In this document: positions 707 to 2,063 of the stretch, piece after piece
Layout of the letters: each line of letters begins with the position of its first letter
Numbering within the stretch: position 1 is the first letter of the stretch
Origin: Plectonema cf. radiosum LEGE 06105
GTDB taxonomy: Bacteria > Cyanobacteriota > Cyanobacteriia > Cyanobacteriales > Nostocaceae
Length of the DNA stretch: 64,000 nt
Assembly: GCF_015207665.1 (NCBI RefSeq)
Contig: NZ_JADEWL010000007.1
Coordinates: forward strand, 1-64,000
Direction of reading: 5' to 3'
Notes under the pieces: model-generated
Database searches by the model: none
The model's input: only the letters and a program-made list of their open reading frames with translations
What the model was told of the DNA's origin: nothing
Program-made: the position numbers and the translations under genes

Positions 707-1286
707 CTAAGCACTTATTGCCCTAATCACAAACGATGATATATCTCAAAGTTGGTATTCAGATAAATCCGAAGCAATTAACTTATCAATTAGCTCCGTA
801 ACACCAGCACCACGACTATTCTTTGTTACAAAAGTCGCAGCTTCTTTCACTACTGGTAATGCATTATTTACTGCTACAGAGATTCCACACACATTAAGAA
901 AATCTAAATCATTTTCAGCATCACCAACACCAACAACATTCTCTGGTAATAACTGCATATCTTCCAAAGCTGCTGCTAAACCTGACGCTTTGTTGATACC
1001 AGTCGGTAAGATCATAAGTGCACCTTTATTCAAAATGATTTCTAAATCTAATCCTAACTCGTTAATAACTTCTGATACCGTTGCCTCGTGTTTATCCCAA
1101 GTAGCTACAATGACTTTTCCTATTGAAGGATTGACACCACGTTCTCGTAGCTTATCCACAAACTCTTGCGGTGGTTTTAGAGCTAATAATTTTTCCTGAT
1201 GATTCGCAGGTACATATAGTAAAGGACCATTTTCCGCTATTACAATATCAAATAAATCTATTTGAGAGAATGCTCTTATTGACACT

Positions 1287-1307
1287 CTCCGGTCTAAAGA
1301 CACGGAG
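1287..1307 (-). repeat. Right-end bulged-T hairpin of the 399-bp element
   Basis: On the minus strand, ctccg-T-gtct pairs with agac-cggag around a TT loop, 6-7 nt from the element end. It matches the architecture of the left-end hairpin at 1640-1660. Confidence 0.75.
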
Positions 1308-1639
1308 ATTCTTGATTCAATGAGTCCACTTAGACTAGACCCCTTGCGGTATCTAACCAAGAGGTGGTTCTCTCCCCAAGCGTTACTTTCCGAGTGCCCC
1401 TCGGTAGTTGGATTATTCCAAAAATTTGTTTGATTTAAATTCTGAACGTCTAGTCCCCATGAAGATTTTACCTATTCCTGGGAAGGAACTAAAACTATGG
1501 AATAGAACCCCATATCTTCAGTTGTCAAGGTACAGATTGCCGCTAGGCAGTTGGGTTTTTATACAGGTTGGTTACCGTTCCTGTTAATAAAATCGTACCA
1601 TAAATGACTGAGGCTTAAAAGCCTTTATGCAGTTTTCAT

Positions 1640-1660
1640 CCCTGGACTAAAGTCACAGGG
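1640..1660 (-). repeat. Left-end bulged-T hairpin of the 399-bp element
   Basis: On the minus strand, ccctg-T-gact pairs with agtc-caggg around a TT loop, 18 nt inside the left end. A second small stem, aggctt/aagcct, lies just inside it. Confidence 0.75.
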
Positions 1661-2063
1661 TTTTCAACCTTCCCTTTATAAATCATTTAACTCACGACCA
1701 GTAATCAAAATTAATTTTCTACCAGAAGAACGTAGACGCTTTAATGCTGCTATGGTTTCATCGTTGACATGACCATGTGTTGCTAATGTACCATCATAGT
1801 CTGTAGCTAGTGCTAGATAACGCATAATAAAGTTATGAAAGAAATACCAACAAATGTTACACATAGGATTTACCCTGCATGAAGCCGGTTTTTATACAAA
1901 ATCCTTGTCTTTAGCATCAGATATCACTGAATAATCCCGATTTATGACTTCACTTGTGTGAATAACGAGATGGATTTTAGTTGTGTAGCAACCATCCGAA
2001 CGCCTTTTATTTACCTAAAAAAGTCGGGACACTGAAAGCCATATTAACCAAGTAATTTTATTT

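Follow-up and report, generated by a model that had tools for sequence, protein, structure and literature searches.

What is the 399-bp sequence that splits a HAD-family phosphatase gene near one end of the window (the whole stretch of DNA analysed, 64,000 nt), and does its interior, in which the longest listed frame (frames of at least 40 aa were listed) has 59 aa and no transposase gene is found, do anything of its own? The first-pass annotation had described a 399-bp insert at 1280-1678 that splits the gene and restores its frame on excision. The features needed to examine this description are:

1279..1677, minus strand (sense): the whole element, 399 bp, AAAGGG...GTGTCAA, delimited by its copies, two split genes and the phage allele pair of a relative
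1678..1825, minus strand: 5' part of the HAD-family phosphatase gene, from the list of open reading frames and the alignment across the joint
746..1278, minus strand: 3' part of the same gene, from Pfam matches to Hydrolase_3 and S6PP and the alignment across the joint

The 399-bp unit can be drawn in two registers, both of which keep the phosphatase frame. Removal of 1280-1678 gives D-L-I-R-A-F and removal of 1279-1677 gives D-L-L-R-A-F, and among ten aligned uninterrupted homologues the residue at the joint was L in seven, Q in three and I in none. Nine of these ten homologues are free of gaps across the 29 residues shown and the remaining one has a single gap past the joint. For the copy on C127, which lies in a TnpB gene, register 1279-1677 yields Y and register 1280-1678 yields F, and the same place in 13 other TnpB rows of the genome is occupied by Y (10), Q (1), W (1) or A (1) and never by F. 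In an occupied/empty allele pair of a phage relative the insertion lies directly 3' of TTAT and its last base is the final A of TCAA, without ambiguity. Because the phosphatase homologues, the split TnpB gene and the phage allele pair agree, the element in the window was placed at 1279-1677. The length and the restored frame of the first-pass annotation thus stand, whereas its boundaries are one base off, and the joint that it proposed (RELNDL followed by IRAFSQIDLFD) puts at the junction a residue seen in 0/10 uninterrupted homologues. Intact homologues containing the same 399 bp, which would speak against an insertion, were not encountered: the phosphatase homologues lack the insert.

A search of the 7.6-Mb genome for further copies, as the first-pass annotation had suggested, returned eight full-length copies of the 399-bp element, of which six are identical and two have one substitution in common, along with many relatives; in the same genome C231 holds a 68% relative, and C275 and C138 are matches to the ends only. 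The flanks of the eight copies look unrelated, and the absence of a target duplication, already noted in the window, holds at 8/8 copies and at the phage allele pair of the relative. On the minus strand all copies read TTAT/AAAGGG...GTGTCAA/ (8/8), with T (5), C (2) or A (1) before TTAT, so that ends, target and copy number can be read directly. The C127 copy (L004) splits a 413-aa TnpB gene and the C130 copy (L003) splits a 277-residue frame that by eye resembles an AraC-type regulator; both genes run antisense to the element RNA described below. A length that is a multiple of three and an excision that restores the frame could be explained by an IStron, i.e. an intron-like element that is removed from the message and leaves the split gene functional. 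We regard this as extremely improbable, given that the joined flanks form frames of 248-298 residues at three copies, of which two (C130 and C127) are antisense and would gain nothing from splicing of the sense RNA, that the remaining five joints cross frames of only 41-128 residues (stop to stop), and that a scan of the whole window against Rfam at the gathering threshold gave no match of any kind.

The element is defined by its ends and by the sequence that it follows:

1678..1681, minus strand: left flanking target TTAT, found at 8/8 copies; presumed TnpA target and TnpB target-adjacent motif
1640..1660, minus strand: left-end hairpin with a bulged T in the 5' arm, CCCTG-T-GACT-TT-AGTC-CAGGG, with 8 exact copies in the genome
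1287..1307, minus strand: right-end hairpin with a bulged T in the 5' arm, CTCCG-T-GTCT-TT-AGAC-CGGAG, with strong covariation between relatives

Instead of terminal inverted repeats there are subterminal hairpins at both ends, each of 21 nt with 5 bp, a bulged T in the 5' arm of the sense strand, 4 bp and a TT loop, precisely the geometry given in the first-pass annotation. The right-end hairpin is preceded by GAAT (1308-1311) and followed by AGTGTCAA. TTAT also precedes several relatives with a similar left end, with TTAC at L133 and other letters at some. Hairpins of this 5'-arm bulge class recur in the genome on C231, C275, C138, C174, C208 and C210 and vary by compensation (e.g. CCCCG-T-GTTT-TT-AAAC-CGGGG); selection at the level of single-stranded DNA may account for the covariation of the right-end hairpin.

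As a member of the IS200/IS605 group without a transposase, the element is a PATE. The earlier assignment to a non-autonomous IS200/IS605 derivative gains support from the lack of a transposase gene and from ends common to TnpA/TnpB-encoding elements, and the search for such elements with the same kind of ends yielded L132, L133 and L028. Locus L132, from a genome of the same family, has both ends within 1.6 kb, with an intact Y1 transposase of 134 aa and a piece of TnpB between them, and the hairpin of its right end has a bulged C; L133 and the own-genome locus L028 have similar ends and a TnpB, with no TnpA frame listed. Since these ends are common to TnpA-bearing elements such as L132, mobilisation by a TnpA from elsewhere is likely. 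The genome, a draft assembly of 323 contigs, gave 10 matches to Y1_Tnp, among which we found no intact TnpA of the 5'-bulge class. The closest TnpA of that class, in an element on C22 with a 5'-bulge right hairpin, is frameshifted; in this genome the tnpA most similar to the L132 gene (two blocks at 53% and 52%) carries a frameshift. Beside the own-genome TnpAs on C25, C55, C157 and C322 no hairpins of either bulge class were found. On C104 and C263, where tnpA is intact, the right hairpin of the element has its bulged T in the 3' arm, and own-genome elements with intact tnpA were rejected as direct parents because this bulge lies in the opposite arm.

Between the ends lies a conserved structured RNA that is homologous to TnpB guide-RNA scaffolds. 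Its parts in the window are:

1279..1585, minus strand: structured RNA, about 307 nt long, interpreted as a free-standing TnpB guide RNA whose guide would be the flank beyond 1279; 35/70 pairs with compensatory changes in 22 rows
1592..1600, minus strand: extended -10-like promoter motif TGGTACGAT, conserved upstream of the RNA
1259..1278, minus strand: predicted guide of the window copy, about 20 nt of flanking gene sequence adjoining the right end, proposed by analogy with TnpB guide RNAs as described in the available part of PMC10097598

BLAST detected at least part of the element in 39/60 genomes, own included. Thirty-five members were aligned once nine names (duplicate, split or partial rows) had been taken out, of which two were re-extended and restored; removal of near-duplicates (≥95%) and of the partial or divergent rows L128, L095, L099, L103, L089 and L126 left 25 rows, and subsequent removal of rows with long insertions gave sets of 23, 24 and 22 rows. 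Counted on the 22 distinct rows, the structure has 12 helices, including one pseudoknot and one single pair. Paired cells amounted to 93.8% compared with 82.1% in shuffled alignments, pairs with double (compensatory) changes to 35/70 compared with 23.7, and the covariation score was 0.383 compared with 0.167; the observed value was reached by 0/500 shuffles on four of five measures and by 9/500 on the fifth, the rows being related. When partners were slid by one to three columns pairing fell to 29-46%, a comparison in which the true register is favoured because the structure was partly derived from the sequences on which it was counted. The minus strand was taken as the RNA strand because many of its G-U pairs would be A-C on the other strand. 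Upstream of the RNA TGNTANNNT occurs in 21 of 34 members, where 1.4 would be expected from mononucleotide shuffles (these rows are related as well), and judging from this promoter-like motif the element probably has its own promoter. Sub-threshold Rfam matches to SL2 and GHRLOS within 1200-1760 were judged to be due to chance.

The RNA consists of two domains:

1441..1585, minus strand: 5' RNA domain, about 145 nt; model R2 has 9 matches in the own genome and none in 44 TnpA/TnpB loci
1279..1410, minus strand: 3' RNA domain, 132 nt, a TnpB guide-RNA scaffold by the matches of model R1 to TnpB 3' ends

The covariance models R1 (3' domain) and R2 (5' domain) were both built from gene-less copies only, and R1 scores therefore favour gene-less copies. 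At the 3' ends of TnpB genes R1 nevertheless scored 100.7 bits (L110), 83.6 (L028), 76.3 (L030 and L035) and 75.7 (L040), followed by 66.0 (L026), 55.3 (L029), 55.1 (L111), 43.5 (L036) and weaker ones besides. In the 44 TnpA/TnpB loci R1 gave 17 matches at E up to 0.5 and R2 none at the same threshold. In the own genome the nine R2 matches are the eight copies and the relative on C231, and the 16 R1 matches comprise nine gene-less elements and seven sites just behind TnpB domains. Taking the R1 matches and the absence of R2 at TnpB loci together, the 3' domain is, by homology, a TnpB guide-RNA scaffold and the 5' domain appears to be specific to the gene-less form. A 3' domain follows the 5' domain on the same strand within 300 nt in 82/96 loci (median gap 39 nt); of the 14/96 loci without one, seven are truncated where the stretch ends and seven are not. 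The 96 loci were fetched for holding the 5' domain or a stretch of it, and the presence of this domain in them is no independent count.

The RNA is not a standard cis TnpB guide RNA, as there is no overlap with tnpB in cis in the 96 loci. Within 600 nt of the 5' domain no TnpB match was found at any of the 96 loci, some of which are cut by contig ends, and the TnpB pieces at 776 and 998 nt in two of them are on the opposite strand. A search for TnpB near the element RNA at 29 loci gave matches at five loci only: L084, whose query frame includes the element, and L104, L108, L110 and L111, which match the element only in part. The seven TnpB-linked R1 sites in the own genome (E up to 0.001) compare with 36 TnpB domain matches, and only some TnpBs of this genome are therefore candidates for a supply in trans. 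The best own-genome candidate that we infer is the TnpB of C174/L028, whose element has the same right-hairpin class, TTAT target and scaffold as the 399-bp element and a similar, imperfect left hairpin. The TnpBs of L028, L030 and L110 keep, by eye, what we take to be the RuvC D-E-D motifs.

In Nodularia phages the insertion of a relative can be observed exactly. The RNA is complete, at 82% identity, in five phage records that represent four distinct phages. A relative of 437 bp is present in kac68v162 and absent in kac68v161 (same host strain) and in 2AV2, and the allele boundaries, AATTAT/AAGAAAATAGG...GTGTCAA/TATAAGG, show that exactly 437 bp were inserted. All five recorded kac65/kac68 phages contain a TnpB-only element, at positions that differ between the two groups; it is preceded by TTAT, ends in GTGTCAA and resembles the phage PATE at its left end. 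The scaffold of this element scored 84.6 bits with R1 in kac65v151; the TnpB elements of kac68v161 and kac68v162 are 99% identical to the one scored, and the phage TnpB is 66.7% identical over 327 residues to the own-genome L028 TnpB. In 2AV2 the PATE site is empty, and nothing closely matching the TnpB element was found. Sister phages therefore have between them a gene-less element, a TnpB element that looks cognate, and empty alleles. In Aphanizomenon phage CL131 (L298, 2924-3054) there is a 3' scaffold of 96.7 bits, accompanied by neither a 5' domain nor a TnpB match over the 6 kb retrieved, and a second kind of free-standing scaffold may therefore exist; a TnpB elsewhere in this phage is reported in the part of its description available to us (PMC6293099).

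With 10 or 11 candidates per genome scored, R2 matched 34/291 cyanobacterial genomes from 25/131 genera of the class (in six of the 34 the best match was weak, E 4e-5 to 6e-4) and R1 matched 116/291. Among the matches listed, R1 sites outnumber R2 sites in 30/34 genomes, which is compatible with a cognate TnpB, the link of the extra R1 sites to TnpB genes being established for the own genome only; in G284, G302, G277 and G077 R1 sites are not more than R2 sites among the matches listed, and there is therefore no sign of a cognate TnpB there. Named carriers include Nostoc, Calothrix, Mastigocoleus, Dolichospermum, Anabaena, Sphaerospermopsis, Nodularia and Brasilonema. Partial matches were found in four plasmid records, and a pattern scan of viral contigs gave no matches. 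At L124 (G003:C391, about 381-2663) a 2.3-kb insert interrupts the RNA copy near element position 289; it starts GGCGCGATTCG, which resembles the start of a group II intron. At L295 (AP018315.1, 3210-3593) a frame annotated as 'transposase' overlaps the RNA in antisense, and this annotation is probably wrong. A Nodularia MAG has seven matches to the 5' domain. For Nodularia spumigena CCY9414 the available portion of PMC3610870 reports 70 copies of an ncRNA element (≥98% identical) that has a strong TSS and is interpreted in that paper as a retroelement RNA; this ncRNA could be an element of the present kind.

These data bear on the simplest alternative, that the element is a mere deletion derivative of a TnpB element whose guide-RNA-like part is a passive remnant and whose mobility depends on TnpA alone. 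PATEs that arose by deletion are known (PMC3119063 and PMC7290912, both in the parts available), and the ends would suffice to explain mobility. A passive remnant is nevertheless unlikely: compensatory change maintains 35/70 pairs, including helices far from the ends, the promoter-like motif is conserved, and so is the 5' domain that is absent from the 44 TnpA/TnpB loci searched. The scaffold phylogeny points the same way. In a tree of 50 rows one branch parts all 40 gene-less scaffolds from 10 others (support 88/95, and 93/88 without the right hairpin), with L298, a gene-less phage element lacking the 5' domain, counted on the TnpB-linked side. This single split was obtained only after eight short, low-scoring rows (<57 bits) on long branches had been removed from a first tree of 58 rows, in which there was no such split and the labels needed six changes, an outcome that we attributed to rows of this kind. 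As the gene-less scaffolds fall on one side of a branch, the form seems to be persistent rather than repeatedly remade.

We consider it likely that the element, a PATE, is moved by a TnpA from elsewhere and that its RNA directs a TnpB, likewise from elsewhere, to cleave empty sites, the trans action of both being what we infer. An IS200-type TnpA made elsewhere would bind both bulged hairpins on single-stranded DNA, excise the element after TTAT and TCAA and reinsert it 3' of another TTAT. From the internal promoter the element would produce its own RNA of about 307 nt, the 3' domain of which would serve as scaffold for a TnpB nuclease supplied in trans. If the transcript passes the right end, the first ~16-20 nt of flanking DNA would become the guide, with the TTAT target acting as TAM, and TnpB would cut empty sites and spare occupied ones, because TTAT is joined to the guide sequence only at sites that lack the element. 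In a cell with more than one chromosome copy, or with co-infecting phages, repair templated by an occupied copy would re-establish the element or let it spread. The 5' domain would probably stabilise the RNA or aid its loading, in place of the 3' part of the tnpB message that precedes ordinary scaffolds, and this is the least certain step. The most far-reaching form of the proposal, an RNA-only mobile element whose sole product is a promoter-driven two-domain guide RNA and which homes between chromosomes or co-infecting phages through cleavage of empty sites by TnpB in trans, is put forward tentatively, as plausible rather than probable.

Two other roles for the RNA can be weighed against the same observations. 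It could be a decoy, binding TnpB so that the nuclease of rival autonomous elements is blocked rather than guided, as would suit a scaffold homologue without TnpB in cis and a 5' domain that could block loading. This is quite improbable in our view, since the scaffold reaches the right end GTGTCAA, so that a flanking guide would be included, and a decoy would not need an exact 3' end, though transposition itself fixes the same end. Alternatively the RNA could serve a host or phage regulator, e.g. a nuclease-dead TnpB-like repressor, with copies kept for their guides. The wide distribution (34/291 genomes) and the presence in phages would fit such a role, but the eight guides of the own genome differ and are simply whatever flanks the insertion, and the candidate TnpBs keep their presumed catalytic motifs, which makes it very unlikely. 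For the preferred reading, a guide RNA used in trans, kac68v162 (occupied) and kac68v161 (empty), both with the TnpB element, would be a ready natural test of homing, and trans-guided retention or homing becomes testable with existing phages and strains. The element also provides a longer natural TnpB scaffold for study and bears on the release of guide RNAs from the nuclease gene, a step that the transition from TnpB to CRISPR effectors requires as well.

PATEs have been described in Haloquadratum (PMC3119063) and Halanaerobium (PMC7290912), and in one PATE-like copy of the latter the final 58 nt of tnpB survive along with the right end (PMC7290912). As far as the available parts of these two papers go, those elements are like the present one in being short and transposase-free, with near-terminal hairpins or palindromes related to the IS605 type and no target duplication, and no guide RNA is mentioned in these parts (PMC3119063, PMC7290912). 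The present element differs in that its interior is a conserved two-domain RNA with a promoter-like motif, found across a bacterial class and in phages.

In TnpB guide RNAs the guide is taken from beyond the transposon boundary and the target-adjacent motif is the TnpA target. TnpB cuts DNA that has a TAM and matches the guide, using a scaffold RNA from the transposon right end, according to the sections available of PMC10097598 and PMC10711439. The omega or reRNA of ISDra2 resembles the present RNA in its structured right-end scaffold and in a target-adjacent motif upstream of the target; it comprises the tnpB 3' end and the right end (247 nt), and its nucleotides -231 to -117 are unseen in the structure (PMC10097598, as available). 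The covariance-model homology of the 3' domain to TnpB 3' ends is a further likeness. Unlike TnpB guide RNAs, the present RNA has no overlap with tnpB, an extra 5' structured domain and its own promoter-like motif. RAGATH-18 is the guide RNA of IS607 TnpB and co-occurs with IS607 TnpB only, in the portion available of PMC11061315. The scaffold aligns over 72 nt (1309-1380) to the whole Rfam model of RAGATH-18 (RF03064), and membership was rejected as the score of 22.9 bits is below the gathering score of 44.9.

IS608/ISHp608 of Helicobacter has GAAT before the right hairpin, a TCAA right end, a TTAC-like target and a bulged T; that bulge is in the 3' arm, whereas here it is in the 5' arm and the target is TTAT. 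The standalone omega RNAs of IscB genomes are guide-RNA copies without a nuclease gene in cis; in the IscB type the guide is at the 5' end, whereas the present RNA is of the TnpB type and lies within a transposable unit. A literature search (titles and openings of abstracts, with few subscription papers) returned no free-standing TnpB guide RNA in a transposon among the matches listed. PATEs and TnpB guide RNAs are thus each known, and what joins them here is a conserved lineage without a protein gene, with a second RNA domain and probably with its own promoter.
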